This document shows positions 24,893 through 38,531 of a DNA stretch of 64,000 nucleotides, piece after piece (the stretch's first letter is position 1; each line of letters opens with the position of its first letter). The stretch is taken from contig NZ_SCNL01000001.1 of assembly GCF_005502745.1 (NCBI RefSeq), positions 248,001 to 312,000 of the forward strand, read 5' to 3'. The notes beneath the pieces are model-generated. The model did not search any database, was not told the origin of the DNA, and was given only the letters and a program-made list of their open reading frames with translations. A program made the translations under genes and the position numbers. The stretch comes from Sphingomonas sp. 3P27F8. GTDB lineage: Bacteria > Pseudomonadota > Alphaproteobacteria > Sphingomonadales > Sphingomonadaceae.

Positions 24893-25399
24893 TTATACCT
24901 CGATTATCCCGTGTTCCCTGAGAGTTGCCAGAATCGTGTTCAGCGCGTCGCGCGCCTGTGCATCGATCACCACGCCGCCCGTCGGATCGGGAATGGCGGC
25001 CGCCTGCGGCCCGATCACCTGCTTGCCTTCGATCATCAGCCGCGCGCCGCGAATATCCCCGCTGCGCCAGCCGCCCGCCTCGTATCGGACGGGCAGACTG
25101 TCCGGTACGCTCCACACCGTCATTCCCGGCTGCGGTGTAAGGAACCGCCATCCGCCGCTCGTCCACGCCGCCAGTGCAGCGGCGTGTTCTGCCCACGCTC
25201 CCACCGGAGAGGGGCCGACGATCCAGCAGTCGCCCGGCACCGGATCGGCCGGCGGCGCGTTCACCGCCACCGCAAGCACAGACGCCTGCGTTGCGATGTC
25301 GAGCAGCGCCAGAGCCTCGTTGTGATCGTTTTCCTTCTGCGCCTGGCCCGGCTGCAACAATGGCAGCGCGAGACGTGGCGATCGTTCGTCGCTCATCAT
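24893..25399 (-). CDS. DUF2793 protein, GTA tail-associated
   Basis: 168-residue protein that ends the GTA cluster. DUF2793 features are the N-terminal LALPLLQPGQAQKENDHNEALALLD and a central PPADPVPGDCWIVG followed by GAWAEHAAALAAW and GGWRFLTPQPG. Such proteins are found at the end of RcGTA-like clusters and in prophages as fibre or adhesin-like proteins. Starts ATG 25399 or 25396 follow GGAGAG. It begins ~10 bp after the gp15 3' fragment. A role in receptor binding is inference. Confidence 0.75.
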   Translation of the reverse strand: MMSDERSPRLALPLLQPGQAQKENDHNEALALLDIATQASVLAVAVNAPPADPVPGDCWIVGPSPVGAWAEHAAALAAWTSGGWRFLTPQPGMTVWSVPDSLPVRYEAGGWRSGDIRGARLMIEGKQVIGPQAAAIPDPTGGVVIDAQARDALNTILATLREHGIIEV

Positions 25400-25408
25400 T
25401 CTCTCCGT

Positions 25409-26419
25409 TTAGAAACTGAAGATCGCCGCGGGGGAGATGCCATTCGTGCCGATCTGCGCGACAGAGATCGACACCGGCCCGGCCGCGCGCTCGGCGGCGG
25501 ACACCAAAGCCGCGGCGACCTCTACCGTCATCGTCCGGGTCGGCAGCGTCGCCGGCGCGATCGTGACGCGATATTGTTCGCGCTCCTCGCCCAGCGGCGT
25601 TTCCGCGCCGTCACGCCAGCGCCAGCCGCTGCGCCCGCGCCGCCGCCATCGCACCAGCGCGCTGCCGTCCACCTGCGAGACGGCCTCGATGCGCACCGGC
25701 GACGGCGGCAGGATCGAGGCCCCGGTAAGCAGCACCTCCGCCTCGGCCGAGTCCGCGACAGCATCGGCCGCAACGCGGAGCGTCCGCCCCACCGATGCGG
25801 CTACCGAAACGGCGGCGACGGCATCCTGCTCGATCAGCACGAAGCGCTCGCCCGGCGTATGTGCAACAGCGCCCGTTCCGCGGCGCCCGCGCCACAATCC
25901 GCGAAGCAGCCATCGTCGCGGCGCGATCTGTGTCGCCGCCGCGAACTGAATCAGTTCGTCGCCGATCAGCGCCAGATTCGCGCCAAGATCCAGCGCACCC
26001 GCGCCCGCATCGCCCAGCGACATATCCTCATGCGCCAGATCGACGATGATCTCGTTGCGCTGGTCGATCAGCGCCACTGGCCCGGCCGGCACCGCGCCAA
26101 CCGTCGTGCCAAGCGTCGCCGGCAACGCCGTGCCGCCGATCGCTATCCAGCTTGCCCCCGCGTCCAGGCTGTATCGCAATCCTGCCCGGCGCCACCCCGG
26201 GCCGGTTCCGGCCGCGGCGATCAGGATACGCGGTTCCGTCAGCAGCGCCTCGTCGAGCGCAGGCAATTCGAAAGCGTGCAGGATCGTAGCACCCGCCACC
26301 ATGTCCGGCGCGCCGACCGATCGCCCGGGCGACGCGCGCGCCGGAAGCGTCGCCGCGCGCTCCGCGACCAGTTCGAGCGTCGTCGCCATCCCCTCCAGCG
26401 ACGTGCCCGTCACCGCCAC
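25409..26419 (-). CDS. GTA gp15 hub protein, C-terminal fragment (frameshifted)
   Basis: Second part of the phage-tail/host-specificity hub gene. It opens with a GTG codon and overlaps the N-terminal fragment by 10 bp in another frame; TGTSLEGMATTLEL right after the junction continues the sequence that follows WRV in intact homologues. The fragment covers the C-terminal tail domains (LLRGLWRGRRGTGAV, RIEAVSQVDGSALVRWRRR), ending at ISPAAIFSF. On its own the GTG start has no ribosome site. One added G in the GG run near 26412 would join both parts to about 705 aa. Either a real mutation, an expressed two-part protein, or a sequencing error. Confidence 0.75.
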   Translation of the reverse strand: MAVTGTSLEGMATTLELVAERAATLPARASPGRSVGAPDMVAGATILHAFELPALDEALLTEPRILIAAAGTGPGWRRAGLRYSLDAGASWIAIGGTALPATLGTTVGAVPAGPVALIDQRNEIIVDLAHEDMSLGDAGAGALDLGANLALIGDELIQFAAATQIAPRRWLLRGLWRGRRGTGAVAHTPGERFVLIEQDAVAAVSVAASVGRTLRVAADAVADSAEAEVLLTGASILPPSPVRIEAVSQVDGSALVRWRRRGRSGWRWRDGAETPLGEEREQYRVTIAPATLPTRTMTVEVAAALVSAAERAAGPVSISVAQIGTNGISPAAIFSF

Positions 26420-27543
26420 CGCCCGCTCTCGCCCCGGATCGTCACGCGGTCGCCCGGCGCGATCCCGATCGCACAGGTGTCGGTCGAAACCGTGCGCCCC
26501 ACACGTTCCGTTTCAGCGCGGGCGAGTGTCGCCGTCGCAATCGCCTTCGCCGCCCCCGCGCCGATCGCGACGGGAGCATCGATGGTGTCGTGCCGGTTGC
26601 CCGCGCCGGGCCGCGTCGCGCGCTGGATCCCGGTCTGATAGTCGCGATCGGGATCATAATGCGCGACGGAAACCGATTGCGGCACCGCCTCGATCGGCCG
26701 GATCGAACGGGCGCGCGTCGATCGCTTCACGCCGTCATCGGCGATCATCAGCACCGGCCCGGAACCCGGCCCGCGCATCTCGGTCGCCGCGCCGACCTGC
26801 GCAAAGCGGCAGCCACCGATCCGCCCGAGCGTTTCCACCACTGCCCGCGCCGTATCGCCATAGCCGGAGAAGCCGTCGATAACGGTCGCGGCCCCCGCGT
26901 CCCGCACCACGCCATCGCTCATCGCCGCCGCGATTCCGCCGATCGTCACCGGCCCGGCATCCGCCTGCACCTCGAAGGTTAGCGAGGGGATGCGGTTCCC
27001 GAAATCCTCCAGCGCCATATCCTCGAACACCGCATAGGCGATGCCGCGATGCGCCGGAGTCAGCGCGCTCCCCTCCGCGCTCGCGATCAGCGGATCGGCC
27101 GGCTGGTCTTCCGCGCCGGGATGGAGCCGGAAGCGCGTCGCGGATTTCCAGTCCCCCGCCGCGCCGCGCAGCAGCTTGCCGTCAGCCCAGATTCGCCGCA
27201 CGCCCAGGATCTGCCGCGCCGACAGCGCCACCGCGAACGAGGCCGTGTAGCTATAGGTTGTAACGCTCGGCCGCCCCTTCCCCCCGCCGCTGGTGGCGCG
27301 ATGTTCCACCAGGTCAGTCGCCCAGATGACCGATCCCGCGACCCGCATCGTGCCGAACATCTTCGGAATCTGCGTGCCGTAGCTCGACGTCTGTACCGCC
27401 AGTTCGGTCAGCCGCGGGCCCTCGCGTCCCTTCGGCTTGAACAGGACGGTCCGATCGACCGTCTGCCCGATCAGCGCGCCTATCGCGCCGCCGATCGGCC
27501 CGCCGATCACTGTGCCCACCGCCGTCAGCACCAAAGTCGCCAT
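26410..27543 (-). CDS. GTA gp15 hub protein, N-terminal fragment (frameshifted)
   Basis: Starts MATLVLTAVGTVIGGPIGGAIG with a hydrophobic N-terminus, followed by GPRLTELAVQTSSYGTQIPKMFG and VIWATDLVEHR, the Rcc01698/phage-tail-3 type hub protein that forms the tail tip in RcGTA. The frame ends at a TGA just after GESGRWR, where homologues continue VTG. A purine-rich ribosome site (GGAAGGGGAAGAAG) precedes ATG 27543. No TIM-barrel domain of the kind found in RcGTA gp15 is present in this or the second fragment. Truncated at 377 aa it would probably not make a complete hub. Confidence 0.8.
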   Translation of the reverse strand: MATLVLTAVGTVIGGPIGGAIGALIGQTVDRTVLFKPKGREGPRLTELAVQTSSYGTQIPKMFGTMRVAGSVIWATDLVEHRATSGGGKGRPSVTTYSYTASFAVALSARQILGVRRIWADGKLLRGAAGDWKSATRFRLHPGAEDQPADPLIASAEGSALTPAHRGIAYAVFEDMALEDFGNRIPSLTFEVQADAGPVTIGGIAAAMSDGVVRDAGAATVIDGFSGYGDTARAVVETLGRIGGCRFAQVGAATEMRGPGSGPVLMIADDGVKRSTRARSIRPIEAVPQSVSVAHYDPDRDYQTGIQRATRPGAGNRHDTIDAPVAIGAGAAKAIATATLARAETERVGRTVSTDTCAIGIAPGDRVTIRGESGRWR

Positions 27544-27937
27544 CTTCTTCCCCTTCCAATCGCCACGCGCCGATCACCGGCCACGGCGGTGCACCCGGTC
27601 GCTCGACCACACGGCGCAGGCCCGCATCAGCGTGAACAAGGCCCGCGTCGGTGACGATGGCGAGATGCAGCCCGCCATCGGCGCAACACAGCAGCAGATC
27701 GCCCGGCGCATCGCCCGGGCAGGTCGCCAGCCCGGCAAGCATCGCGTCTTCCAGAGCCGCCGGGCCGGATCGCAACGCATAGCCGGCCGGCACCTGCCCT
27801 CGGTAGCCGCCGGCCCGCAGCGCCCAGCCCGCCACGCCGACGCAATCCAGCCCCAGCGCCGGATCGCGCCCGTGCGGCCGGAACCGCGCGCCGACCGTCG
27901 CTCGCGCCGCCGCGACGACGCGGTCCGCGCGCGTCAT
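27314..27937 (-). CDS. GTA gp14 NlpC/P60 cell wall peptidase, no stop at usual end
   Basis: Tail-tip peptidase thought to open peptidoglycan during GTA entry. The catalytic Cys is in GLDCVGVAGWAL (~30) and the His in LHLAIVTDAGLVHAD (~90); GLRRVVERPGAPPWPVIGAWR marks the normal C-terminus near residue 125. The reading frame then does not stop: it runs about 76 codons through the start of gp15, giving Arg/Asp-rich sequence that looks like out-of-frame translation. Start ATG 27937 overlaps the gp13 stop (ATGA). The intended end is probably near 27543. Function call is sound; the 3' end is abnormal. Confidence 0.8.
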   Translation of the reverse strand: MTRADRVVAAARATVGARFRPHGRDPALGLDCVGVAGWALRAGGYRGQVPAGYALRSGPAALEDAMLAGLATCPGDAPGDLLLCCADGGLHLAIVTDAGLVHADAGLRRVVERPGAPPWPVIGAWRLEGEEDGDFGADGGGHSDRRADRRRDRRADRADGRSDRPVQAEGTRGPAADRTGGTDVELRHADSEDVRHDAGRGIGHLGD

Positions 27938-28731
27938 CCGCCCGGATAGCGCGTCAGCAGGTCGATCCCCGGCAGATACGGCTCGCCGCGAAAGTTCACC
28001 GCGTTGCCGAACCGCCCCGCGCAGGTGGCGAGCGTCTTGTCGCATCCCTCGCTCACCTCGATCAGCGCCCCCGCTTCCACCGCGAACGGCGGCAGGCTGC
28101 GCAGCGTCACCGTCGAGCCCGACGAGGCGGTCACAGCGCTTTCGAACCCGCTGTTCGCCCCGCCGAACCAGCGCAGCAGCCCCCCGCCATAGGCATCGGC
28201 CACCGGCTCCGCCCGATCGAGCGTCAGCATTTCGTCGCTCGCGGCGGTCACCCGTGCGAACCGCCGCCGCCCCGCCATCGCCACGCGGCAGCGCCGGTCG
28301 CCCAGCGCGGCGCGGCAATCGGGCGAGGTCGCCTCCGTCGCGGGGCGATCGAGCGCCGCGGCTGCCCCGCGCAACTCGGCGGTGAACGCCTCGCCACCCA
28401 GCTCCACCGCCCCGATCGTCCCTTCGCCGAGCGGCACCGCATCGCCTCGTGCCACCCGATCGACCGCGAAGATCGCCACGCGCGCGCCGTCCCAGCGGCC
28501 CGCGATCAGGTCACGCTCGGTGATCGCCGCGCTGGAAAGCGAACCCTTCGCGTCCATCGTCGCGGGATCGAGGCCGTCTCCGCGCACGATCGCCGACGGG
28601 GTCATGCCCGGCGCCGCGCGATAGGCCATGCCGTCGATCTCCAGGTCGCGATCGTGATCGGTCAGCCCGATCGCCACGCCGTCGCGCCGCTCGATCCGCC
28701 AGCAGATCGCAAGATGCGTCACCCGGTCCAT
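27934..28731 (-). CDS. GTA gp13, DUF2163 baseplate hub protein
   Basis: 265-residue tail hub protein (DUF2163 with BR0599-type C-terminal domain). N-terminal THLAICWRIERRDGVAIGLTDHD and C-terminal GNAVNFRGEPYLPG are diagnostic. Four cysteines (CRAALGDRRC and CDKTLATC) form the cluster that in related tail-tip proteins such as lambda gpL binds an Fe-S centre; the same role here is inferred. It starts 2 bp after the gp12 stop and overlaps gp14 by 4 bp. Confidence 0.88.
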   Translation of the reverse strand: MDRVTHLAICWRIERRDGVAIGLTDHDRDLEIDGMAYRAAPGMTPSAIVRGDGLDPATMDAKGSLSSAAITERDLIAGRWDGARVAIFAVDRVARGDAVPLGEGTIGAVELGGEAFTAELRGAAAALDRPATEATSPDCRAALGDRRCRVAMAGRRRFARVTAASDEMLTLDRAEPVADAYGGGLLRWFGGANSGFESAVTASSGSTVTLRSLPPFAVEAGALIEVSEGCDKTLATCAGRFGNAVNFRGEPYLPGIDLLTRYPGG

Positions 28732-28732
28732 C

Positions 28733-30985
28733 TCACGCCTCCCGGATCTCGATCAGCGGCACCGACGGCGCGGCGCCCGCAAGAAACGTCGAGCGCGTCA
28801 CGCTCAGCCGGTCCTCCGCGAAACGCACCGGCACGTCGAACGCGAAGGAGGCGGTGATCGCAACGCCCTCGGCCGGCGCCGCATCCAGCACGATATCCCC
28901 GCCCTCCAGCGCGAACGCCGCCGTCGCCACCCCACCGACCCTGACCGATACGCTCCCCGCGACCGGCCGCGTTATCCGTCGCACCGTGGCGCCATAATGC
29001 TTCACCAGCGCGAACCGCCGCGTAACGCCGTCCCCGGTCCCGATCGCCTCGTCGCCCGCCGCCGCGTCGAACGGATCGCGCAGGCGGAAGCCGCGCGCCG
29101 ATCCGCCGCGTGCGCGGAAGAAATCGAGCAGCACGCGAATGTCCGCCTCGCTTCTCACCCCCGGCCCGACATCGTAGCGCGTGCGCGCCTGCTCCCACGC
29201 CACGTTGCGGGTCTCGCTACCGCCCGCGCTCGTCACGATCGTGGTGGAGAATTCCGGCGCCACTTCCGCCTCGCGGCCCAGCGCGAGCGGGAACAGCACG
29301 TCATCGAACGCGGTCACATCATCCTCCTCATCCCAGTGCACCAGGCCGTCGCGCATCACCTGCGGCAGCGCCCAGAGATACGCGCGCCGCGCGCCGCGCC
29401 GCAGCGCCGCATCGGCGGCCGCGTCGATCAGCCGCCATTGCGCGGCATCCTCCGTCTTCAGCACGAAGCCAGCGAGATATTCCTGCCGTTCGGGCGGATA
29501 GCCCAGCCGCGTGAGCGCCGCTTGCGCGCCTTCCCGCGAGGCCGCGGTATCGCCCGCCGTCACCCAGTCGTAATCCTCAAGCTGGAGCACGTCGAAGGCC
29601 GGCGCGGCCCAGCCCGTTGGCAGGTTCGCGCGCTTCGCATGGGGCGCGGCGGCATCCAGCACCGTCGGCAGATAGGCGAGCAGATATGTCTCGCACCCCG
29701 CGGCCACTTCCCGCGCCGCCGCGCACAGCGCCGCCGTGGACGTCGCCAGCGCCGCCCCGGCAGCGTCCAGCGTCGCGATCTCCGCCGCGCTCTTTGCGCC
29801 CCGGATCGATGCGATCGGCACCGGCGCGAACGCCGCAACGGCGCTGGCATCGTAGAGGCATGGCCGCCCGTCCGGCATCGTCCACCACCACGGCTCGCCG
29901 ACCTGGAATTTCGCCGCCAGCCCTGCCGCCGTGCCGATCGCCACGAACGCCGCCGCCACCGCGCGCAGATAGGCCATCGCCCCCTCATGCGTGGGCGACA
30001 GGAGGGTGGACGGCGGCGACCATCCGGTCAGCGCGGGCGCGCCATCCGCCGCGCGCTGCTTCCACGCCTCCGGGCAATGCGCGTCGAACAGTTCGTAGCT
30101 CAACGACCAGATCAGGTCGTAGCCAAGCTCCTTCGCCCGCCGCGCGAAATCGCGGTGCCACGCGGCGCACGCCACGTTGAGCGCCCCGCCGCCAAGGCTC
30201 GCCACGCCGCCCGAGAGCCGGAAATAATGGCTCATCCCGACGTAATGAACGATCGCTCCGCGATACCCGAGATACAGCGCGTTTCGCAGCAGCCGCGCGG
30301 GCGTCAGATTATAGCTGTCGTCATAGCCGCTCGCGATGCCGAGCCGGTGCTCGGGTACGACCGCCTCGCCGATCGCGATCACCGCGCCGGCGCCGTCGCA
30401 GCGGATCTCGCTGATCTCGGCCCAGCCCTCGGCCGGTGCGGCGAGCGGCGCATCCGCCTCGGTATAGCCCGGCGGCACGAGCGAGAAGAACATCCGGTCC
30501 ACGTCGCCCGCCCACACCGGATCCGCCTCTGCAGGCAGCATGAAGCCGCCTTTCAGATCGGCGAAGTCGATCGTGACGCGCGCGTCCTCGGGCGCGCCCT
30601 GCGCGTAGTTCCACAGTCGCACGTACCAGGAACGCGCCTGCCCCGCCGCGTCGCGCCCCTCGATCGTCAGCACCGGGCCGTTGATCGCGTCGAGCGCGCG
30701 GACGCCGCCGGATCGCCAGCGGAACGACAGCCGGCAGGCGCGGAAATCGCGCGCCGTCTCATATTTCAGCAATGGGTGATCGTGGCGGTCCTCCGCGTCC
30801 CAGATCAGCCCGGCGAGATCGTTCTGGCGATAGAAGGCGCAATCGACGCGCAGCGCATCCGGCGCGATGGTCGTCACCGCCGCCATCATCGGGCGCGGGA
30901 AGTTCACCGTCCAGAAACGCGGATCGAAGCGCGATATCGTGCCCGTCGTCTGATGCCGCCGTTCGCGGCAGAGCCAGTGCGCCAT
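28733..30985 (-). CDS. GTA gp12: DUF2460 distal tail protein with large N-terminal sheath/TIM-barrel-like extension
   Basis: 750-residue protein. Only the last ~205 residues (from EVAPEFSTTIVTSAGGSETRN to SVPLIEIREA) match the ~210-residue DUF2460 distal tail protein of RcGTA. The first ~540 residues are an extension: a beta-rich part (~1-215, e.g. ARSWYVRLWNYAQG) and a TIM-barrel/glycosidase-like part (~215-540) with GAIVHYVGMSHYF, GYDLIWSLSYELFDAHCPEAW and KFQVGEPWWWTMPDG, similar to non-contractile tail-sheath type proteins. ATG 30985 overlaps the gp11 stop; upstream in-frame sequence lies within gp11 and is not used. Likely forms the distal tail plus an outward domain touching the cell surface. 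Confidence 0.83.
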   Translation of the reverse strand: MAHWLCRERRHQTTGTISRFDPRFWTVNFPRPMMAAVTTIAPDALRVDCAFYRQNDLAGLIWDAEDRHDHPLLKYETARDFRACRLSFRWRSGGVRALDAINGPVLTIEGRDAAGQARSWYVRLWNYAQGAPEDARVTIDFADLKGGFMLPAEADPVWAGDVDRMFFSLVPPGYTEADAPLAAPAEGWAEISEIRCDGAGAVIAIGEAVVPEHRLGIASGYDDSYNLTPARLLRNALYLGYRGAIVHYVGMSHYFRLSGGVASLGGGALNVACAAWHRDFARRAKELGYDLIWSLSYELFDAHCPEAWKQRAADGAPALTGWSPPSTLLSPTHEGAMAYLRAVAAAFVAIGTAAGLAAKFQVGEPWWWTMPDGRPCLYDASAVAAFAPVPIASIRGAKSAAEIATLDAAGAALATSTAALCAAAREVAAGCETYLLAYLPTVLDAAAPHAKRANLPTGWAAPAFDVLQLEDYDWVTAGDTAASREGAQAALTRLGYPPERQEYLAGFVLKTEDAAQWRLIDAAADAALRRGARRAYLWALPQVMRDGLVHWDEEDDVTAFDDVLFPLALGREAEVAPEFSTTIVTSAGGSETRNVAWEQARTRYDVGPGVRSEADIRVLLDFFRARGGSARGFRLRDPFDAAAGDEAIGTGDGVTRRFALVKHYGATVRRITRPVAGSVSVRVGGVATAAFALEGGDIVLDAAPAEGVAITASFAFDVPVRFAEDRLSVTRSTFLAGAAPSVPLIEIREA

Positions 30986-31539
30986 CAGTCCCCCGCCCCC
31001 TCGAGCGCGGCGCGCACCGCGCGCGCCACCTGCCGGCTGGACCGCGCGAGCACGCCCGGCGCGGTATCGGCGGCGGCGTTGATCGTGATCGCCACCCGCA
31101 CGTCGCGCCCGCCGCCGCCCGTTGCCGCTGGCGCGATCGATCCGCTCGCCGTCGGCACGAACAGTTCCGGCCCGCGCTCGCCCACCCAATAGGCGCGCGC
31201 GGGCGATACCGGCCCGCCGGTCGCGCGGCCGGGCAATCCCAGCAGGCTCGTCAGGCCGCCGAGCAGCCCCGCCCCGCCGGTGATCTGCCCGATGCCCGCG
31301 CGCAGCGCCGAAGACGCGATCTCGGTCATCGCGGACATCGCCACCGTCTTGAGATCATCGAAACCCAGCTTGCCGCTGCGCACCGCGCGCAGCAGCGTGT
31401 TCTCGATCGCGCGCCCGGCGCGATCGGCGCCGCTCGCCAGCGGCCCTTCCAGTTCGCCCCGCATCGCGCCCACGTCGCGCGCGAAGCCGGCGGTGTCGGC
31501 GCGCACGCTCACCACCAGCCGTTCGATTTCCTCATCCAT
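30985..31539 (-). CDS. GTA gp11, short tail tape measure protein
   Basis: 184 residues. The N-terminal half is helical (IERLVVSVRADTAGFARDVGAMRGELEG) and the middle has glycine-rich hydrophobic segments (GAGLLGGLTSLLGLPGRATGGPVSPARAYWVGE-type region at ~85-120, with GERGPELFVP). The GPELFVP box is typical of tape measure proteins. Tape measure length sets tail length; a short tape fits the short GTA tail. It overlaps gp10.1 by 8 bp. Confidence 0.82.
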   Translation of the reverse strand: MDEEIERLVVSVRADTAGFARDVGAMRGELEGPLASGADRAGRAIENTLLRAVRSGKLGFDDLKTVAMSAMTEIASSALRAGIGQITGGAGLLGGLTSLLGLPGRATGGPVSPARAYWVGERGPELFVPTASGSIAPAATGGGGRDVRVAITINAAADTAPGVLARSSRQVARAVRAALEGAGD

Positions 31540-31729
31540 CGGGAAACATCTCCCTCAATCGTGCGATCGCGCCGGCATCGGGCGGATCGCCGCCCGCCGC
31601 CTCGCCGGTCATCGCGCCAACCAGCACGCCCAGCTCCGCCGGGGTTGCGCGCCAGAATGTATCCGGGGACCAGCCGAACGCCGCCCCCGCCAGCCCGGCG
31701 AGCCGGGCGGCGCTGTCGCGGAACGTCAT
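31532..31729 (-). CDS. GTA phage tail assembly chaperone (Rcc01693-like)
   Basis: 65 residues with the family pattern AFGWSPDTFWRATPAELGVLVGAM. In GTAs and lambda-like phages the pair of genes between the major tail protein and the tape measure encodes assembly chaperones, sometimes made by frameshifting. Here it is a separate gene overlapping gp10 by 4 bp (ATGA). Confidence 0.8.
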   Translation of the reverse strand: MTFRDSAARLAGLAGAAFGWSPDTFWRATPAELGVLVGAMTGEAAGGDPPDAGAIARLREMFPDG

Positions 31730-32040
31730 TTTCCCGCCAGGATCTGGCCGAGCAGCAGCTTCAGCACCGGCGTCGCCGCTGCCAGCCCGCCCGCCGTCAC
31801 CGCCTCGCCCAGCCGCTCGCGGGTCAGCCCCTCGGGCCGCTCGCGCAGGCAGTGCCAGAACAGCGCGACGATCTCTCCCAGCGTCAGCCTGCCCGCCACG
31901 GCGCGCTCCACCAGCGCGAACAGCGGCCCCAGTTCCTGCTCCGCCGCCACCAGCGCCGCGAAGCTCGGGCGCAGCGCCAGCATCTCGCCCGCCACACGGA
32001 TCGCCGCCTCGCCGCGCGCGGGATTTGCCGGCGCGCTCAT
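31726..32040 (-). CDS. GTA gp10 tail assembly protein (GTA-gp10 family)
   Basis: 104 residues. N-terminal GEAAIRVAGEMLALRPSFAALVAAEQE followed by LTLGEIVALFWHCL is the GTA-gp10 family pattern, the first tail assembly chaperone. ATG 32040 overlaps the gp9 stop by 4 bp. Acts in the cytoplasm during tail assembly. Confidence 0.82.
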   Translation of the reverse strand: MSAPANPARGEAAIRVAGEMLALRPSFAALVAAEQELGPLFALVERAVAGRLTLGEIVALFWHCLRERPEGLTRERLGEAVTAGGLAAATPVLKLLLGQILAGK

Positions 32041-32444
32041 GCCGCCACCACCGCGCCGGAGCTTTCCAGATTCAGCGTGTACGATCGCTCGCCGTTGAAA
32101 TCGCCGGCATAGTCCAGCCGCGTCACGAGGAACCGGCCGGTCATCGTCTCCCCGCCCTCGAACGTCAGGCGATAATCGTCGATCAGCCCGGCCAGCGCAT
32201 TGGCCTTTACCCGCGCCTCCGCCGCCGATCCGGTGAACACCCCCGCCGCCGACACGCTGACGCTGCGCACCCCCGCGCCGGACAGCAGCTCGCGCCACCC
32301 GCCCGAGCCCTTGTTGGTAACGACCACCGCGTCGCCGTTGATGTTCATCTGCGTCGTGCGCATCCCCGCGACCGTCTGCCACGCGACCGGGCTGCCCCCG
32401 TCGCCGACCTTGAGCAGGAACGCGCTCCCTTTCTCCACCGCCAT
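32037..32444 (-). CDS. GTA gp9 major tail protein
   Basis: 135 residues. VEKGSAFLLKVGDGGSP at the start and NINGDAVVVTNKGSGGWRE, TGRFLVTRLDYAGDFNGE later are typical of TP901-1-like/GTA major tail tube proteins. ATG 32444 overlaps the gp8 stop; longer upstream reading frame lies in gp8. Hexamer rings of this protein would form the tail tube. Confidence 0.88.
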   Translation of the reverse strand: MAVEKGSAFLLKVGDGGSPVAWQTVAGMRTTQMNINGDAVVVTNKGSGGWRELLSGAGVRSVSVSAAGVFTGSAAEARVKANALAGLIDDYRLTFEGGETMTGRFLVTRLDYAGDFNGERSYTLNLESSGAVVAA

Positions 32445-32836
32445 CACACACTCTCCCGATAGATCCGTACCGTGAACTCGCTCGTCGCGGCCCAGCGATC
32501 GTCGCCCGCCCGCGCGATCCGGCTCCGCACCAGGCGCGCCGAAACGCAGCGCCAGCCATCGCCCATGTCTGGCGGCATCGCCTCCACCGCTTCCTCGATC
32601 GTGCCCGCCACTTCGCGCAGCCACGCCGGCCGCTCGCCGCGATCGAATGCCGAGACGACCAGCCGCCCCTCGCGTCCGCGCCAGTCCTTCGTGCTCCAGT
32701 CGATCAGCAGCGGCGGATCGACCACCACGTAGCGCGGCGCCGCGCGCACCGGCGGCGCATCGAACACCGCCACCGCGCCCAGCGCCGTGCGCAGCGCCGT
32801 CACCGCCGCCGCCTGCACCGCCTGTTGCCCGCTCAT
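32444..32836 (-). CDS. GTA gp8, DUF3168 tail terminator-like protein
   Basis: 130 residues of the DUF3168 family (HK97 gp10/tail completion type). Seen: AAAVTALRTALGAVAVFDAPP, YVVVDPPLLIDWSTKD and a C-terminal TSEFTVRIYRESV. Placed between the gp7-position gene and the tail tube gene, as expected. ATGA overlaps on both sides. Confidence 0.85.
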   Translation of the reverse strand: MSGQQAVQAAAVTALRTALGAVAVFDAPPVRAAPRYVVVDPPLLIDWSTKDWRGREGRLVVSAFDRGERPAWLREVAGTIEEAVEAMPPDMGDGWRCVSARLVRSRIARAGDDRWAATSEFTVRIYRESV

Positions 32837-33021
32837 CGCCCCAGCCCTCCCGGCCAGCGCAGGCGGGAGAGCACGCCGCGCCCGGTGATCGTCACGGTCG
32901 CGCCCTCGCGCGCCACCCGCACGCCCGGCAGCGCCGCGCCCGCCGCCGCCGCCACCCGCGCCGCGACCACCAGCGCGCGCGCCTTGCCGATGCGCGCCGC
33001 GATCTCGCCGGCGCGCGTCAT
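32833..33021 (-). CDS. Small protein at GTA gp7 position (head-tail closure)
   Basis: 62 residues (MTRAGEIAARIGKARALVV...), ending LSRLRWPGGLGR. ATG 33021 overlaps the gp6 stop. It is much shorter than the usual ~110-residue head-tail joining protein and shows only a helical N-terminus and VTITGRGVLSRL. Function is assigned from its position between gp6 and gp8. Conserved ATGA spacing supports it as a real gene. Confidence 0.65.
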   Translation of the reverse strand: MTRAGEIAARIGKARALVVAARVAAAAGAALPGVRVAREGATVTITGRGVLSRLRWPGGLGR

Positions 33022-33569
33022 GCCCGTCGCTCCGTCGTCAGCCGCAGCCGCCGGTACGGCCGCCACAGCGCCGCCACCGCCGCCGGCGGCTGGGTGGCGC
33101 GCCCGCGATCCTCGAACAGGTGCGCGATCAGCGCGACCACGCCCTGCGCGATCGGCGCGGGCAAGGCCGCCCAGTCCGTCGCCACCCCGGCGGTGTAGTT
33201 CACCGCGATCCGCCGCGCATTGCCCGGCGCGCTCACGCGTATCCAGCCACGGCCGTCGCCATCGATATCGATCGCATGGCCCGCCGTCGGCAGCGCGAAC
33301 GGCGCGCCTTCCTCCGGCAGGCCGGTGATCTGCGCGATCGCGTTCACCGGCGCTTCCGCCAGCATCCGCCAGTCCGCCGACACCGGCAGCACCTCGTCCA
33401 CCGCGCGGCGGATCAGCAACGTGCCGGTGAATGCCTCGCCGAGCAGGATGGCGCTCGCCGCCAGTTGTTCCAGCAAGGCCTGTTCGCCCACGCCGGAATC
33501 GCGCAGGAATTCGCGCGCCGCCGCCACCGCCGCCTGCGCCGCGGCGGCCGGAACCGGGGCGGCGCTCAT
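33018..33569 (-). CDS. GTA gp6 head-tail connector protein
   Basis: 183 residues, phage gp6-like connector (HK97 gp6 type). The pattern AREFLRDSGVGEQALLEQLAASAILLGEAFTG and VNAIAQITGLPEEG, GVVALIAHLFEDR is characteristic. It would form a ring on the portal where the tail docks. A 15-codon mini-ORF with a good ribosome site ends on its start codon. Confidence 0.85.
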   Translation of the reverse strand: MSAAPVPAAAAQAAVAAAREFLRDSGVGEQALLEQLAASAILLGEAFTGTLLIRRAVDEVLPVSADWRMLAEAPVNAIAQITGLPEEGAPFALPTAGHAIDIDGDGRGWIRVSAPGNARRIAVNYTAGVATDWAALPAPIAQGVVALIAHLFEDRGRATQPPAAVAALWRPYRRLRLTTERRA

Positions 33570-33643: not shown

Positions 33644-33665
33644 GGGCGACGCATGCGCGTCACCC
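33644..33665 (-). terminator. Stem-loop after the capsid gene
   Basis: A 9-bp stem (GGGTGACGC / GCGTCGCCC on the minus strand, one G-U) with a four-base loop lies 15 bp after the capsid gene stop. No T-run follows, so it looks like a partial terminator or RNA-stabilising end rather than an intrinsic terminator. Confidence 0.45.
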
Positions 33666-33679
33666 GGCCCGTCCCCGGC

Positions 33680-34687
33680 TCAGGCGGCGGCGAACTTCAT
33701 CAGCTTGATCGCCTCGCTGTTCGACACGCATCCGCCGATCCGCTTCGTCGCGTAGAAGCTGACGAACGGCTTGTTGCTGTACGGATCGCGCAGGATCGCC
33801 GTTTCGCTGCGTTCCGCGATCAGATAGCCCGCCTTGAAATTGCCGAACGCGATGGACAGCGAATTGGCGGCGATATCGGGCATGTCCTCCGCCTCGATCA
33901 CCGGATAGCCGAGCAGCGTCGCCGGCTGGCCCTGCGCCAGGCTCGGCTGCCACACGAACGCGCCGTCGCTCGTCTTGAACTTGCGGATGCGCGCCAGCGT
34001 GGCGGCATTCATCACGAACACCGCGCCCTGCCGATATGGCGCGCGCAGGCTCTGGACGAGATCGACGAGCCGCTCCTGCGGATTCGCGGAGAAATCCCCC
34101 GCCGCGCCCGCCGGCAGATATTGCAGCGTGCCGAACGCCCGCGCGCCGTCGCCGGTCGCGGCCGTCGGGGACTGGAGGAAGCCCTTGGGCCGATTCGTGC
34201 CGTTGCCGCTGACGAAGGCCGCGCCCTCCGCCTTCGCGAATTCGGTCGCGATCTCTCCGGCGAGCCATTCCTCCACGTCGAACTGCGCATCGTCGAGCAT
34301 CGCCTGCGTCGCGGTGGGGTTGGCATAAAGCTCGCCCATCGGCGGCGCGATCTCCACGAAGTTCGGGCTGGCGGTTTCGGGCCGCGCGCCATTCTCCGCC
34401 GACCAGCCCGAAGGCGTGCCGCCGGTCGTCACCAGCTTGCGATACCCGGCCGATCCCACCGCCACCACGTTCGCGATCGCGCGGATCGGCGAGGCGGCCT
34501 TCAGCGTCGCGTCGATCACCACGTCGATCTCACGCGGCACGGCATAGCCGCCGCTATCGCCGGAAACGCCGCTGAACGCCTTCATCTCCATCGTCGCGCC
34601 GCTGCGCACATAGCCTGCGAACACGCGGCTTCCCGCTTTCGCCGCCGCACCTTCCAGCACCGGCCGCGCCATCACCATCTCACCCAT
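33680..34687 (-). CDS. GTA gp5 major capsid protein (HK97 fold, no delta domain)
   Basis: 335-residue shell protein. From about residue 47 it is a clear HK97-type capsid: GGYAVPREIDVVIDATLKAASPIRAIANVV, WSAENGARPETASPNF, GELYANPTATQAMLDD, SGNGTNRPKGFL. The start ATG 34687 has GGAGG 5 bases upstream. HK97-family precursors, including RcGTA gp5 (~400 aa), carry a ~100-residue N-terminal scaffold (delta) domain that the protease removes; here the protein starts roughly at the mature end. Upstream in-frame sequence is only the shadow of the protease gene. A terminator-like hairpin lies before it and another after it. Confidence 0.92.
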   Translation of the reverse strand: MGEMVMARPVLEGAAAKAGSRVFAGYVRSGATMEMKAFSGVSGDSGGYAVPREIDVVIDATLKAASPIRAIANVVAVGSAGYRKLVTTGGTPSGWSAENGARPETASPNFVEIAPPMGELYANPTATQAMLDDAQFDVEEWLAGEIATEFAKAEGAAFVSGNGTNRPKGFLQSPTAATGDGARAFGTLQYLPAGAAGDFSANPQERLVDLVQSLRAPYRQGAVFVMNAATLARIRKFKTSDGAFVWQPSLAQGQPATLLGYPVIEAEDMPDIAANSLSIAFGNFKAGYLIAERSETAILRDPYSNKPFVSFYATKRIGGCVSNSEAIKLMKFAAA

Positions 34688-34723
34688 GCACACCTCCGCA
34701 AAGCCCGCCACGCATGGCCGGCG

Positions 34724-34745
34724 AAAAGAACGGGGACCGTCCCCG
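34724..34745 (-). terminator. Terminator-like hairpin between protease and capsid genes
   Basis: On the minus strand, arms CGGGGA and TCCCCG with a 3-base loop are followed by TTCTTTT. It lies between the protease stop (34771) and the capsid start (34687). The stem is short but GC-only with a U-tract. It could attenuate transcription before the capsid gene. Confidence 0.5.
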
Positions 34746-34770
34746 CCCGATCTGTTGAAAATCCGCCCGG

Positions 34771-35151
34771 TCAGTCGCCGGGGATCAGCTCCACGCGCGC
34801 CGCCGGTTGCGCCGGCCGCGCGACGAGGCTCACCTCGAAGAGCTGCGCCGCCAGTATCTCGCGCCACGCCCCCTGCCGCGTCGCGGTCGCGCGATAGCCG
34901 ACCGACAGGCCCGGCAGCGCGCCGGCGCGCACCAGCCGTGCGGCATCCTCCCGCGCCACCGCCGCCTCGATCCACAGGCCGCGCGCATCTTCGGCGATGG
35001 TCGCGATCGTGCCCACCGGGGCCCCGCGATGCTGCATCAGCAGCGGCACCACCGCGGGCGCGCCGAATGCGCCGCGCCGGATCACGTCACCCGCGCGGTC
35101 CACCCGGTCATAGACGGCGGCATAGCCCCGGATGCGCGTCACTTCACCCAT
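34771..35151 (-). CDS. GTA gp4 prohead protease (HK97 family)
   Basis: 126-residue serine protease of the HK97 prohead family. The catalytic His is in LLMQHRGAPVG (~45) and the Ser in LPGLSVGYRA (~85); the N-terminus IRGYAAVYDRVDRAGDVIRRGAF is typical. ATG 35151 overlaps the DUF6127 gene by 13 bp. In RcGTA this enzyme trims the capsid precursor, yet the capsid here appears to lack the trimmed part, so its target is open. Confidence 0.88.
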   Translation of the reverse strand: MGEVTRIRGYAAVYDRVDRAGDVIRRGAFGAPAVVPLLMQHRGAPVGTIATIAEDARGLWIEAAVAREDAARLVRAGALPGLSVGYRATATRQGAWREILAAQLFEVSLVARPAQPAARVELIPGD

Positions 35152-35432
35152 TGGCCGAACCCCAGCTTCACCGCGAGCACCGCCAGCAGCAGCGCCGCCA
35201 CCCAGCCCGCGAACGCCTTCCACGCGCTCTGCTTGGCATCGCGCCATGCCGTCAGCAGCGCGCGCAGCTCCGCCACGTCGCGCGTCGCCTCGTCGTCGGC
35301 GAGGCCGAGCCGGGTCAGCGCGCGCGTCGCGCCCAGCTCGCCCGCTTCCTCCGCGATCGCGCGCAGCGTGGCGAGGTCCGCGCCGGTGGCGGTGCCCTGC
35401 GCGATCAGTTGCGCCAGGATGCCCGCGCTCAT
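35139..35432 (-). CDS. DUF6127-type small protein with C-terminal membrane segment
   Basis: 97 residues: a helical N-terminal part (LAQLIAQGTATGADLATLRAIAEEAGELGATRAL) and one hydrophobic segment near the end (AFAGWVAALLLAVLAVKLGFG). ATG 35432 overlaps the portal stop by 4 bp. Sphingomonad GTA clusters carry such a gene between portal and protease; Rhodobacter has an unrelated small ORF there. Role unknown; a membrane-anchored assembly factor is possible. Confidence 0.7.
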   Translation of the reverse strand: MSAGILAQLIAQGTATGADLATLRAIAEEAGELGATRALTRLGLADDEATRDVAELRALLTAWRDAKQSAWKAFAGWVAALLLAVLAVKLGFGQWVK

Positions 35433-36523
35433 TGCGACCACCCGACCATCTGGCGCTTCTCGTCGTTCGTGATGAAATCGGCCGCGGTAATCATCCGCCA
35501 CAGCCGCTCGCGATCCTCCACCAGCGCCGGCACGCGATCGAGGTCGATCTCGAGCCGGCCGTCGGGAAACCAGCGCTCGATTCCCGCCAGCAGCGCGCCG
35601 ATCACCGCGTCCGCCAGCGGCAGCACGGTGAGCCGCCACAGCGCGCGATTCGCTTCCTTGTAATTGGCGTAGGTCGCGTCGCCCGGCAGCCCGAGCAGCA
35701 TCGGCGGCACGCCGAACGCCAGCGCGATCTCGCGCGCCGCGGCCGCCTTCAGCCCCACGAAATCCATGTCTGCGGGGGACAGGCTCAGCGCCTGCCACTT
35801 CAGCCCGCCCTCCAGCAACATCGGTCGCCCGGCATTGCCGGCGCCGGCGAACCCGGCCTCCATTTCCTCCTTCAGGCGGCGGAACTGCTCCGCGCTCATC
35901 GCCGATCCGTCGCCGGGATCATAGACGAGCGCGCCGGAAGGCCGCGCGGCATTGTCCAGCAGCGCCTTGTTCCAGCTCGCCGCCGCATTGTGGATCGCGA
36001 TCGCGGAGGATGCCGCGCCCAGGCATCCCAGCCCGTAATGATCGTCGACGGGGTTGAAGCTGCGGATATGGATCACCTCCTCATCCGAAAGATGCGTCGC
36101 CCGCCCGCCGACGCGATAGACATAGCCCGCCGGCCAGCCCCCCGCATCCAGCTCCACCGTCACGCGCTCGGGCCGCAGCGGATAGAGTTCCGCCACCGCG
36201 CCTTGGGCATCGCGCAGCACCTGCACGAAGCCGTTGCCGTGGAGCAGCATCTGCGCCGCGAGCACGCCGAGCAGCCGCTCGCCCCCGATGCGCGCGCTCA
36301 CCAGCCTCGCCAGTGCCGGAGCCGAGCCGTCGAGCGGCGCGCCGCCCACGCTCTCCGCCACCAGTCGCACCGCGCGCTGCGCCACGGCGTTGCCGCAATA
36401 GCCCGCGCGCACCTGCGCCTCATATCCCTGCGGCCAGCGCGCCGCCTCGTCGAAATACGTGCCGCCACGCGACAACGCCGGGCGCGACCCCTCGCGCCCG
36501 GGCTTCCAGCCGAACAACTTCAT
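35429..36523 (-). CDS. GTA gp3 portal protein (HK97 family)
   Basis: 364-residue portal subunit. Key segments are GNAVAQRAVRLVAESVG (~45), LLHGNGFVQVLRD (~105), ARPSGALVYDPGDG (~205), EIALAFGVPPMLLGLPGDATYANYKEANRALWR (in two parts, ~270-300) and LEIDLDRVPALVEDRE. Dodecameric portal at the DNA-entry vertex; binds terminase. The ribosome site AGGAG lies 8 bases before ATG 36523. Length is near the usual ~390. Confidence 0.93.
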   Translation of the reverse strand: MKLFGWKPGREGSRPALSRGGTYFDEAARWPQGYEAQVRAGYCGNAVAQRAVRLVAESVGGAPLDGSAPALARLVSARIGGERLLGVLAAQMLLHGNGFVQVLRDAQGAVAELYPLRPERVTVELDAGGWPAGYVYRVGGRATHLSDEEVIHIRSFNPVDDHYGLGCLGAASSAIAIHNAAASWNKALLDNAARPSGALVYDPGDGSAMSAEQFRRLKEEMEAGFAGAGNAGRPMLLEGGLKWQALSLSPADMDFVGLKAAAAREIALAFGVPPMLLGLPGDATYANYKEANRALWRLTVLPLADAVIGALLAGIERWFPDGRLEIDLDRVPALVEDRERLWRMITAADFITNDEKRQMVGWSQ

Positions 36524-36548
36524 GTCAGTCTCCTATGGGAGCTTGGTC

Positions 36549-37877
36549 CTACAGTTCCCGCACGGCCACCGCGCCGCGCCGGCCCAGCATCAGTTCGGTC
36601 AGCGCCCACACCAGCGCGTCGGCGCGATCCGGCGAGCGGCCCGGCCCCTCATATCCGCCACCGGCGGAAAGCCCGCACAGCTCGTCCTCCAGCGCCGGAA
36701 ACGCGCCGACGTGCCATACCCGGCCCGCCTCGTAGAGCGCGGCGACCGGCTCCGCCCGCGCCGCCTTGCCGCGGCTGGCGTGCACCAGCGTCACCGGCAA
36801 TGCCGCATCGGCGGCGAGCAATGTCGCGCGCACCATCTCGCCGCCCTGGTTCTTCTCCGCCACCACGCGATCGGCCCCGCGCCGCGCCGCGCATGCCGCC
36901 ACCGCGCGCGCCCAGCGCTCCGGCGTCGCGCCCGTGACGCTCGCGTCTTCCAGCACATAGCCGCGCCCGTCCGCGCCGAGCGCCACCGCGACGATGCCGC
37001 AGGCGTCGCCGCCCACCCCTGCCGGCGGATCGACGCCCACCACCACGCGCACGGCATCGGGCATCGGCGCCGCGCGCCGCGCCTCGATCAGCCCGCGCGT
37101 CCACAGCGCACCGGCCACCTCGTCGATCAGTTCGCCTTCAAGCTCCTGCCGCCCCAGCATTGTCCCGGCATAGCTGTCCGCCATCGCCGCGACGAAGCTG
37201 GCGGGCAGGTGCGGGTTGTCCGCCGTGCGCCCGCGCGTCTCCACCACGCCGGGCAGCGCCATCACGCGCCGCATCAGCCGCGTCGGGCGCGGCGTGGTCG
37301 TCACCAGCACGCGCGGGCGCTCCCCCAGCCGCATCGTCAGCATCAGATTGTCCCACGCCGCCTCGCCGCCGCGGCCCCATTTGCCCAGTTCGTCGCACCA
37401 GGCGAGATGATGTTCCGGCCCGCGCAGTCTTTCCGGCGCGCTTGCGGCATAGACGCTGGCGGTCGCGCCATTGGGCCAGCGCACCACGCCCGCCGTCGCG
37501 CGCCACTCGATCGGCTCATGCTCGCGTGCCAGCGCGATCAGGCCGCTCGGCCCTTCGATCATCACCTGCCGCACATCGTCTGGCGTGGCGCCGACGAGCG
37601 CGACCCGCGCCTCGGGCGTCGAGCGGGCCAGCGCGCCGATCCACTCCGCGCCCGCGCGCGTCTTGCCGAAGCCGCGCCCGGCCCGGATCAGCCACACCCG
37701 CCAATCTCCCGGCGGGGCGCGCTGGCCGTCATGCGCCCATGCCGCCCAGCGATCGCGAAATTCGCGTCGCTGCGCCGGCGTCATCGCCAGGATCGCGGTG
37801 CGCCGCTCGCGTGGCGGCAGCGCAAGCAGCCGGTCGATGATCTCGGCGGTGGGATCGCTGCCCGTGCCGCGCCTCAC
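36549..37877 (-). CDS. GTA gp2 terminase large subunit
   Basis: 442-residue DNA-packaging motor. ATPase domain: Walker A in IRAGRGFGKTRAGAEW (~55), Walker B in HHLAWCDELGKW (~140), motif III VTTTPRPT. Nuclease domain: VVGVDPPAGVGGD (~265) and the late Asp in RSPDRADALVWALTEL. GTG 37877 overlaps the small terminase stop (GTGA) and is taken as start. GTA terminases cut host DNA without site preference, packaging random chromosomal pieces; the same is inferred here. Motifs are intact. Confidence 0.93.
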   Translation of the reverse strand: MRRGTGSDPTAEIIDRLLALPPRERRTAILAMTPAQRREFRDRWAAWAHDGQRAPPGDWRVWLIRAGRGFGKTRAGAEWIGALARSTPEARVALVGATPDDVRQVMIEGPSGLIALAREHEPIEWRATAGVVRWPNGATASVYAASAPERLRGPEHHLAWCDELGKWGRGGEAAWDNLMLTMRLGERPRVLVTTTPRPTRLMRRVMALPGVVETRGRTADNPHLPASFVAAMADSYAGTMLGRQELEGELIDEVAGALWTRGLIEARRAAPMPDAVRVVVGVDPPAGVGGDACGIVAVALGADGRGYVLEDASVTGATPERWARAVAACAARRGADRVVAEKNQGGEMVRATLLAADAALPVTLVHASRGKAARAEPVAALYEAGRVWHVGAFPALEDELCGLSAGGGYEGPGRSPDRADALVWALTELMLGRRGAVAVREL

Positions 37878-38353
37878 TTTCCATCGCCCGCGGGCGGAGT
37901 GGCCCGCCGCGCCTCGATCTGCGCCAGCTTGGCCAGGATCGCGCGATCGCTGTCGTCCTGATCGGCATAGCGGCGCGTGGGGCCGGTCGCGCGGCGCGGC
38001 CTGCCCGTCGCCTCGCGGTGCCGGCTCAGCAATTTGATCGACAGGTCCACCGAAATCGCGGGCAACGGATCGGCGCCGGCGATCATGTCGCCCGGCTCGC
38101 CGCCCAGCGCGTGGCCCAGCAGCCGGGTTTCGAGCATCTCGTAACCCAGCGCCAGCGCCTCGCCCCATGCCTGCGCGAAGGCGGGGTCCTGGCGCCGCCA
38201 GCGATGGACGGTCGCGACATGCACGCCGCCCGCCACCGCCGCCGCCTTGACGTTGCAGCTTGCCGACAGGCAATCGAGAAACGCCTCGCGCTGCGCCGCC
38301 GGCCATTTCGGATAGCCGCCATTCCCCGGCGCGGTCTTCACCTGCGTGGCCAT
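37874..38353 (-). CDS. GTA gp1 terminase small subunit
   Basis: 159 residues with a helix-turn-helix (CNVKAAAVAGGVHVATVHRWRRQDPAFAQAW, ~25-55), a helical oligomerisation part, and a charged C-terminus (TRRYADQDDSDRAILAKL) resembling the segment RcGTA gp1 uses to contact the large subunit. ATG 38353 follows GGGGGA by 7 bases; ATG 38368 would add MGDIG but has a poor ribosome site. First gene of the GTA operon, ~130 bases after a predicted promoter. Confidence 0.82.
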   Translation of the reverse strand: MATQVKTAPGNGGYPKWPAAQREAFLDCLSASCNVKAAAVAGGVHVATVHRWRRQDPAFAQAWGEALALGYEMLETRLLGHALGGEPGDMIAGADPLPAISVDLSIKLLSRHREATGRPRRATGPTRRYADQDDSDRAILAKLAQIEARRATPPAGDGK

Positions 38354-38382
38354 GCCAATATCCCCCATCCGAGCCCACGAAA

Positions 38383-38436
38383 CGGAAACGGGCCGGCCGC
38401 AGCAGGATATGATCCGCGCGCACCAGCCCGTTTCCG
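38383..38436 (-). promoter_or_regulatory. Long stem-loop in the GTA operon leader
   Basis: Perfect 11-bp arms CGGAAACGGGC and GCCCGTTTCCG are separated by 32 bases and lie between the predicted transcription start (~38496) and the first GTA gene. An RNA stem this long in a leader could control transcription continuation or translation. Confidence 0.5.
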
Positions 38437-38502
38437 CGCCGACGCGCGCCTCGCGAGCCGCCCGCTCGGCCCCCGCAAGTCACAATTCGTCAGCGTTCCT
38501 GT

Positions 38503-38531
38503 TATGTACCCAAACAGCGTGACGCTGTCAA
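38503..38531 (-). promoter_or_regulatory. Sigma-70-type promoter of the GTA operon with internal palindrome
   Basis: On the minus strand TTGACA (38526-38531) is followed after exactly 17 bases by TACATA (38503-38508). A perfect inverted repeat ACAGCG-tga-CGCTGT (38514-38528) overlaps the -35 edge and spacer, a position suited to repression. The surrounding ~90 bp is the least GC-rich part of the 400-bp gap between the GTA operon and the cyclophilin gene. Confidence 0.6.

Follow-up and report, generated by a model that had tools for sequence, protein, structure and literature searches.

The head-tail genes at positions 24893-38368 of a 64,000-nucleotide stretch of DNA from Sphingomonas sp. 3P27F8 (hereafter the window) raise the question of whether this bacterium of soil and water encodes a gene transfer agent (GTA) of the Rhodobacter capsulatus type (RcGTA), how such a particle would be kept silent and released, and what the closeness of a lysis cassette to its structural genes means. 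GTA control and structure have been detailed mainly for Rhodobacter, Caulobacter and few others. On balance, we consider it probable that the cluster specifies an RcGTA-type particle with an N4-like tail tip, that an XRE-family protein represses gafA, the cluster and the lysis genes, that lysis passes to LexA where this XRE protein is missing, and that the lysis genes came to lie near the cluster by rearrangement. Four elements go beyond the original prediction, which was made from the letters of the window: the fusion of three domains in g12, gafA and an XRE gene at 44-45 kb, a frameshift in the megatron gene, and the absence of the lysis linkage in relatives.

The genome (4.06 Mb, 43 contigs) was compared with several samples. 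The 80-locus set holds the 80 best of 560 confirmed stretches matching g12, mostly from Sphingomonas, with a few from Stakelama, Hephaestia and Sphingomonadales metagenome-assembled genomes (MAGs), two of its records being labelled Arthrobacter and Microvirga. A further 20 relatives' stretches (with a probable partial overlap in genomes) were compared for synteny. Additionally, we used a family sample of 199 genomes, a class sample of 289, a same-genus sample of 25 for gafA, and 50,697 phage records. Own-genome pattern searches covered 1.66 Mb (the window plus 80 stretches, 24 kb being counted twice).

By its sequence, the cluster belongs to the RcGTA lineage and keeps an order conserved over Sphingomonadales. 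Matches to Pfam, TIGRFAM and PHROG families run on one strand from the terminase through the megatron to a DUF2793 protein. The strand and order that the original prediction gave are as we find them; its seventeen genes become 18 genes in 19 open reading frames (ORFs), as follows.

37874..38353 (start 38353 or 38368), minus strand: terminase small subunit, terS (PHROG terminase small subunit, 1.7e-10)
36549..37877, minus strand: terminase large subunit, terL (PF03237, PF17289)
35429..36523, minus strand: portal (PF04860, 3e-73)
35139..35432, minus strand: DUF6127 protein (PF19622; same position in relatives)
34771..35151, minus strand: prohead protease (PF04586)
33680..34687, minus strand: major capsid protein (PF05065, 4e-84)
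33018..33569, minus strand: g6, head-tail connector (TIGR02215, above cut-off)
32833..33021, minus strand: short ORF at the g7 position (by position; 48% identity in 1/20 relatives' stretches)
32444..32836, minus strand: g8, tail completion (PF11367)
32037..32444, minus strand: g9, tail tube (PF06199)
31726..32040, minus strand: g10, GTA-gp10 family (PF11836)
31532..31729, minus strand: g10.1, tail assembly chaperone (PF09550)
30985..31539, minus strand: g11, tape-measure-like (weak PHROG tape-measure matches)
28733..30985, minus strand: g12, NCTSP N-domain, TIM barrel and distal tail protein, 750 residues (PF23844, PF23845, PF09343; TIGR02217; AlphaFold/Foldseek)
27934..28731, minus strand: g13, baseplate hub (PF09931, PF09356)
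27548..27937 (frame continuing to 27314), minus strand: g14, tail peptidase-like by position (homology to relatives)
26410..27543, minus strand: g15 megatron, piece 1, with iris, adhesin-like and central regions (NF048004, 250 bits against a cut-off of 800; PF13550)
25409..26413, minus strand: g15 megatron, piece 2, fibre-binding, in a different frame (PF23666; one ORF with piece 1 in relatives)
24893..25396, minus strand: DUF2793 tail-fibre domain protein (PF10983)

The short ORF at the g7 position has no Pfam or PHROG match, and g14 has no family match above cut-off in Pfam, TIGRFAM/NCBIfam or PHROG; its peptidase role and DCVG motif are ones that we presume. The order of the matched cluster genes is identical in 20/20 relatives' stretches, as far as each extends (terS, g6, g7, g8, g10, g10.1 or DUF6127 being unmatched in some). 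The terL, portal and capsid proteins are 65-84% identical to those of same-genus clusters, and all phage records matching them (550, 205 and 1,120 records) fall below 60% identity, with 46.2-49.1% for the capsid, 40.6-48.0% for terL and 36.3-48.6% for the portal among the matches listed. Based on the genus-level identity, the shared order and the low phage identity, we read the locus as a GTA rather than an active prophage, in agreement with the domesticated particle that the original prediction proposed. The averaged GTA protein distances track those of hslU/hslV moderately (Spearman 0.54, permutation p 0.012, 8 genomes) and also those of the linked pyrC/ygfZ (0.62, p 0.002, 26 loci). The synteny and the co-variation with hslUV are as expected of genes inherited with the chromosome; the NCTSP domain itself is patchy, being present in 125 of the 199 family genomes. 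The syntenic terminase-to-megatron cluster, together with a gafA homologue in the genome, places the locus in the RcGTA-like lineage; its particle would be expected to package and transfer random host DNA.

How would such a particle be controlled? The candidate regulators, their sites and the lysis cassette are the following.

44668..45231, plus strand: divergent XRE helix-turn-helix (HTH) repressor candidate, 187 residues (PF13560, PF01381)
44629..44658, minus strand: operator in the gap between gafA and the XRE gene (TAACCAGATAGGTT and CTGTCCTACA)
44122..44583, minus strand: gafA homologue, DUF6456 (PF20057, 9e-38)
38494..38553, minus strand: terS promoter, with operator-like GAACCAAACGGGAAC (38539-38553), CTTGACAGCGTCACGCT (38516-38532) and TACATA-ACAGGAAC; core in 30/46 loci
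19489..19513, minus strand: endolysin promoter (CTGTCCTACA and GAACCAATTGGGTT)
18913..19452, minus strand: endolysin, GH108 (PF05838, PF09374)
18488..18895, minus strand: GTA holin with three transmembrane segments (PF11351, 3e-29)

About 6 kb separate terS from the gafA homologue and the divergent XRE gene upstream of it. The gafA family, to which DUF6456 corresponds, has been reported in every alphaproteobacterial order with GTAs (PMC9638019, PMC9765227). The promoters of gafA and endolysin each have a palindrome of the TAACC-N5-GGTTA type, and terS has a related site, which makes a single regulon of gafA, particle and lysis genes likely. The endolysin promoter carries the element CTGTCCTA (as do 15/16 such promoters, from 15 same-genus loci and the window), and its combination with the palindrome recurs at 44629-44658, ahead of the DUF6456 gene; these are the only two places in the 1.66 Mb searched. 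CTGTCCTACA alone also occurs twice there, about what base composition predicts by our own estimate, and only the combination with the palindrome singles out both sites. The XRE protein has no S24 match (Pfam at E 1; profile search of the PDB), and the profile of its family gave one marginal HTH match among solved structures.

All 25 same-genus genomes have gafA, and a divergent XRE gene stands beside it in 17 (the window and 16 others, 15 of the 16 aligned). In loci from other families a divergent XRE homologue (32-39%) adjoins gafA in 8/10, the operator in the gap being clear in 5/8 and weak or absent in 3/8. The distance from gafA to terL is 1.0-1.6 kb in 4/4 other-family genomes measured; within the genus it is 3.8-13 kb in 5/12, and in 7/12 the two genes are 199-763 kb apart or on another contig.

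At terS, a conserved promoter consists of CTTGACA-N-CG, usually followed by CACGCT and a GGAAC-type block. Of 69 loci, 50 extend 1.3 kb or more upstream, and removal of duplicates left 46 for counting; 30 of the 46 have the core CTTGACANCG 350-1300 nt upstream of terL (expected 0.003 per region); a GGAAC-like block follows it in 29/30, and a palindrome A[AT]CC-N4-6-GG precedes it in 21/30 (background 0.7% per 28-nt window). In the window, GAACCAAACGGGAAC also fits the LexA-type box GAAC-N7-GAAC exactly; this interpretation was dropped in favour of the palindrome, since such a box occurs in only 4/69 loci (up to 1.6 kb upstream of terL) and the palindrome is the comparative signal. An attempt to delimit the regulon by searching the own genome for the terS core (up to 3 mismatches) was likewise abandoned, with 78 matches against 65 in the reversed control, and a promoter scanner returned 0 sites over 38300-38800.

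Genomes with and without the XRE gene beside gafA differ in these sites. Within 120 nt before gafA, AACC-N4-6-GGT is found in 16/17 genomes with the XRE gene and in 0/8 of those lacking it there (against a background of 3% among windows of 120 nt), the exception (G012) having at best a half-site. The motif GTTC-N7-GTTC, which precedes lexA in 14/14 and recA in 13/13 same-genus loci long enough, is the LexA box of the genus. By exact tests, 7/16 endolysin promoters hold the palindrome (AACC-N4-6-GGTT), 7/16 the LexA box, and 2/16 neither, of which L060 is a near match; the window's endolysin promoter has no GTTC-N7-GTTC box. Sorted by XRE status, the palindrome stands before the endolysin gene in 8/10 XRE-plus and 0/6 XRE-minus genomes (Fisher p 0.007, kinship ignored), and the LexA box in 1/10 and 6/6, respectively (Fisher p 0.0009, kinship ignored). 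In a recA tree shown without support values, the XRE-minus genomes fall in at least two groups.

Several observations weigh against this regulatory reading. One of the eight XRE-plus palindromes (G010) was scored by eye, G003 combines the XRE gene with a LexA box, and the endolysin promoter of G008 has neither element. The contrast is between only 10 and 6 related genomes, among which independent changes were few to judge from the tree of the one gene recA, and XRE status was judged beside gafA only. Additionally, the terS core is missing in 16/46 loci, and the window's own terS site is a poor palindrome.

In the mechanism that we propose, the XRE protein would keep gafA, the terS cluster and the endolysin unit silent; with repression lifted, GafA would act as activator and the cluster would be transcribed from the terS promoter, after which the endolysin-holin pair would release the particles. 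In species without an XRE gene beside gafA, the LexA box would instead place lysis under SOS control.

The lysis pair could also be a Sphingomonas device for SOS lysis, or for the release of vesicles or extracellular DNA, which GTAs merely exploit. We regard this as rather unlikely. It accommodates the seven exact LexA boxes, the holin found in 44 of the 74 family genomes without an NCTSP domain, and two genomes that retain the cassette: G021 (one contig, rated 100% complete), in which no GTA-like capsid is matched, and G016 (100% complete), whose sole capsid match is at 25% identity. As both keep the endolysin-holin pair and gafA (G021 with an exact LexA box at its lysis promoter), the lysis unit can exist without a particle and may serve more than the GTA, a point that counts against our reading. 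What speaks for a common control is that the same CTGTCCTA element and palindrome precede gafA, and that holin and NCTSP domain co-occur: the domain is present in 125 family genomes and the holin in 147, with both in 103 (103/125, odds ratio 3.2).

Whether the particle still functions in this isolate is a separate matter. The original prediction called the cluster complete; in the present assembly the megatron gene is frameshifted, its pieces at 26410-27543 and 25409-26413 lying in different frames with a GTGA-type overlap, and the intact megatron expected of a functional GTA is therefore missing from it. The best megatron matches lie in a single ORF in 18/18 loci with both halves among the 20 stretches (L034 having an extra, weaker piece near the C-terminus in another frame). 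In the 80-locus set, 73 loci have both halves, in one ORF in 72 and split in one (L135), and 7 are incomplete. With the break between the central and fibre-binding regions, particles may assemble and yet fail to deliver DNA. A decaying pseudo-GTA, with the frameshift as a loss of function, is doubtful to our mind: the split is found here and, by the same test, in only 1/73 relatives' loci, but the remaining cluster ORFs are open along their matched lengths, and the GTG start of piece 2 overlaps the stop of piece 1, so that two chains could still arise. The window frameshift could itself be an assembly error, which is a further caution against our reading. The g14 frame, which extends 230 nt into g15, was considered as another lesion and rejected, as an overlap of more than 20 nt is shared by 7/78 relatives' loci.

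That the palindrome is a site for the GafA activator, and not for the XRE repressor, seems improbable. GafA is indeed present in every same-genus genome, and its autoregulation has been reported in Rhodobacter (PMC6363796); the 8 XRE-minus genomes, however, have gafA without a palindrome before it, and the element TCCTACA, which precedes gafA in 25/25 (as CTGTCCTA in 17/25), fits a GafA or core-promoter site better.

Returning to the cluster, how did the lysis genes come to lie so near? The endolysin-holin pair is indeed at 18488-19452, 5.4 kb past the distal end of the cluster, the order in the window being GTA-ompA-ugd-VOC-ygfZ-pyrC-endolysin-holin-hslV-hslU. Among the intervening genes listed before, OmpA, the UDP-sugar dehydrogenase (ugd), the glyoxalase/VOC protein and the amidohydrolase (pyrC-like) are borne out; the ygfZ product has no Pfam match at E 1e-5, and its name is that of the original prediction. 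The significance given there to both modules sharing one region finds no parallel in relatives. Genus GTA loci continue into ompA, and often into ygfZ and pyrC, without the cassette, and neither endolysin nor holin is matched in any locus of the 80-locus set (0/80; in 61 the sequence extends 9.2 kb or more past g12, and 28 reach pyrC and 0.15-2.6 kb further). The cassette instead adjoins hslV in 13/15 same-genus lysis loci, and no GTA genes were matched in these stretches, which span 10.5-13 kb. NCTSP domain and GTA holin share a contig in 54 family genomes, at a median distance of 1.22 Mb; the 11.9 kb of the window is the minimum.

Based on the relatives' GTA loci without the cassette and on these megabase-scale distances, the linkage looks like a local accident, in which two blocks would have been fused by rearrangement. 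Selected closeness, in a compact domesticated unit as first read, is very unlikely: 18488-38368 does contain both modules, with gafA 6 kb further, and against it stand the 0/80 loci, the place of the window at the bottom of the 54 genomes and the cassette's usual position next to hslV. A tight shared history of the modules is also disfavoured, to the detriment of our own reading, since endolysin distances correlate neither with those of hslUV (0.19, p 0.22) nor with those of the GTA (-0.05, p 0.53).

A temperate prophage or its remnant, for which the phage origin of cluster parts could be cited, is exceedingly improbable given the order-wide synteny, the phage identities of terL, portal and capsid, all below 60%, and the lack of att-like repeats. 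This lack had been noted before, and we too find no att-like pair of at least 18 nt bracketing the cluster (the repeats fall into 12 imperfect, GC-rich families); the protein families matched by the cluster ORFs include no integrase or replication gene, no separate search having been aimed at them. As a separate observation, a same-genus genome without NCTSP or holin match (G004) has at C60:5966-6100 a 43-residue capsid piece with 63% identity and an in-frame stop, perhaps a GTA remnant; this genome retains gafA and the XRE gene.

The second distinctive part of the RcGTA-type particle that we propose is its tail tip. The 750-residue g12 chain joins PF23844 (1e-100), PF23845 (9e-159) and DUF2460/PF09343 (3e-65), its C-terminal part being of the Rcc01695 distal tail family (TIGR02217, above cut-off). 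Residues 271-551 match phage N4 gp64 (1.3e-37) and residues 7-91 match N4 gp65 (4e-19). The AlphaFold model has a mean pLDDT of 77, with values above 90 across a large part of the barrel and under 50 at 150-152, 553-617, 623-636 and 719-750; Foldseek ranks the N4 gp64 and gp65 chains at the top (30% identity to the gp64 chain), and next 8gtc_G, a distal tail protein, and glycosidases. Like the N4 sheath, g12 thus has an NCTSP N-domain and a TIM barrel, but the match is of domains only, here joined to a distal tail protein, and we do not class g12 as such a sheath on this comparison. The motifs GEPWWW and EDYDW are common to g12 and N4 gp64; the shared motifs include Glu364, which closes a barrel strand, and Glu470. 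Neither residue varies in alignments of 15 and 36 sequences, and we infer that they are catalytic. One of the two closest relatives, L102 (a MAG, 83% identity), was excluded from the g12 alignment; its g12 gene (L102:2254-4518) has an in-frame stop.

The megatron (696-747 residues in 80-locus-set loci with both halves) begins with positions 1-204 of NF048004, and in relatives its profile match to the Rhodobacter type is confined to the central and fibre-binding parts (probability 100). The peripheral TIM-barrel domain that marks the Rhodobacter-type baseplate, PF13547, is absent from the own genome. In the class sample, PF13547 is found in 29 genomes and PF23845 in 4, with an overlap of 0. We considered that the NCTSP barrel might be the relocated GTA_TIM domain, and set the idea aside on a profile comparison without similarity (probability 0.2), a result that also tells against our reading; as the two barrels lack profile similarity, relocation and replacement by another barrel are equally likely. 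Six N4-sheath-like TIM-barrel modules would then sit on the distal tail ring, taking the place of the peripheral domain of the RcGTA megatron, and with the fused protein, DNA delivery is predicted to differ in its receptor or in a step of polysaccharide degradation.

An other-family genome of the class sample (G198 C3:57599-58654) has an NCTSP TIM barrel too, in a 919-residue frame. Among the 419 phage records matching g12, only one covers at least 80% of the fusion, with 68% identity; this record (L181, MT840053.1, 'Bacteriophage sp.', from faeces, 5.4 kb) is unverified and unannotated, and may be a bacterial GTA fragment.

More tentatively, Sphingomonadales GTAs may be a distinct type, with an XRE/TAACC-N5-GGTTA regulon, a takeover of lysis by LexA upon XRE loss and a distal tail ring bearing six TIM-barrel enzymes derived from the N4 sheath, the barrel being on the distal tail protein here and on the megatron elsewhere. 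If true, the switch from XRE to LexA operators would exemplify the rewiring of a domesticated virus to host stress, with particle release tied to DNA damage. The Sphingomonadales clusters are widespread, and a candidate repressor, operator and activator offer a direct experimental handle.

Among the neighbours, one gene stands out by its conservation.

23665..24783, minus strand: OmpA-family outer membrane protein, conserved neighbour (PF00691)

It lies within 1.5 kb of the DUF2793 gene in 73/73 loci of the 80-locus set having the latter. In five other-family stretches (L084-L088, 33-48% identity) the distance is 0.3-1.3 kb. The OmpA protein may be a functional partner, for instance as receptor or in release. 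Between terS and gafA, at 42432-42731, is a gene of the HU/IHF family (Bac_DNA_binding), and ARAGORN finds a tRNA-like gene of undefined anticodon at 58887-58980 of the window.

Compared with known systems, the cluster is like RcGTA in its head-tail order, its Rcc01695-family distal tail protein, hub, megatron and DUF2793 fibre domain, its holin-endolysin release genes and its gafA-family activator. It differs in a distal tail protein with a 550-residue N4-sheath-like extension, in a megatron without the peripheral TIM domain, and in the DUF2793 gene, which closes the main cluster in Sphingomonas and is located away from it in Rhodobacter. The reported RcGTA structure has a hexameric distal tail protein and a megatron with iris, adhesin-like, peripheral, central and fibre-binding domains (Bardy 2020, PMC7296036). 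The XRE/LexA-type operators also set Sphingomonas apart from the CtrA-GafA control described for R. capsulatus, where LexA works through cckA (PMC6363796); LexA sites have been predicted at the GTA cluster of D. shibae (PMC6473078).

Genome surveys have already reported Sphingomonadales GTA clusters and a replacement of g7, with gafA homologues in 196/208 genomes across GTA-bearing orders (PMC9765227, PMC9836097), and the Sphingomonadales clusters showed the strongest selection for translational efficiency (PMC9765227); the g12 fusion, the XRE repressor and the operators are unmentioned in the passages of these surveys that we draw on. Our searches of open-licence papers showed no account of a repressor, operators or tail tip for sphingomonad GTAs.

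The Caulobacter GTA has been reported to be controlled by the HTH repressor RogA and by GafYZ, with a palindrome between the -35 and -10 of the cluster promoter and IHF as co-activator (PMC9632790, PMC11150451). The combination of an HTH repressor and a GafA-type activator is thus shared, as predicted here from sequence alone. RogA joins its HTH to an S24-like C-terminal domain, and the Sphingomonas XRE protein is matched in the HTH only; the Sphingomonas operator differs in sequence from the reported GafY and GafZ elements, and Caulobacter is described as lacking a holin-endolysin homologue (PMC9632790, PMC11150451).

At the tail tip, the related distal tail protein in the baseplate of the Dinoroseobacter phage R4C (8gtc_G; PMC10276861) is a 214-residue chain without the extension, in a phage. 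In N4, gp64-gp65 dimers are reported to form a six-fold non-contractile sheath, with gp65 as receptor-binding protein (PMC12633501); g12 resembles this sheath (PDB 9lc0, 9yf5) in its NCTSP N-domain and TIM barrel and, unlike it, belongs to a GTA and has both joined to a distal tail protein of siphovirus type.

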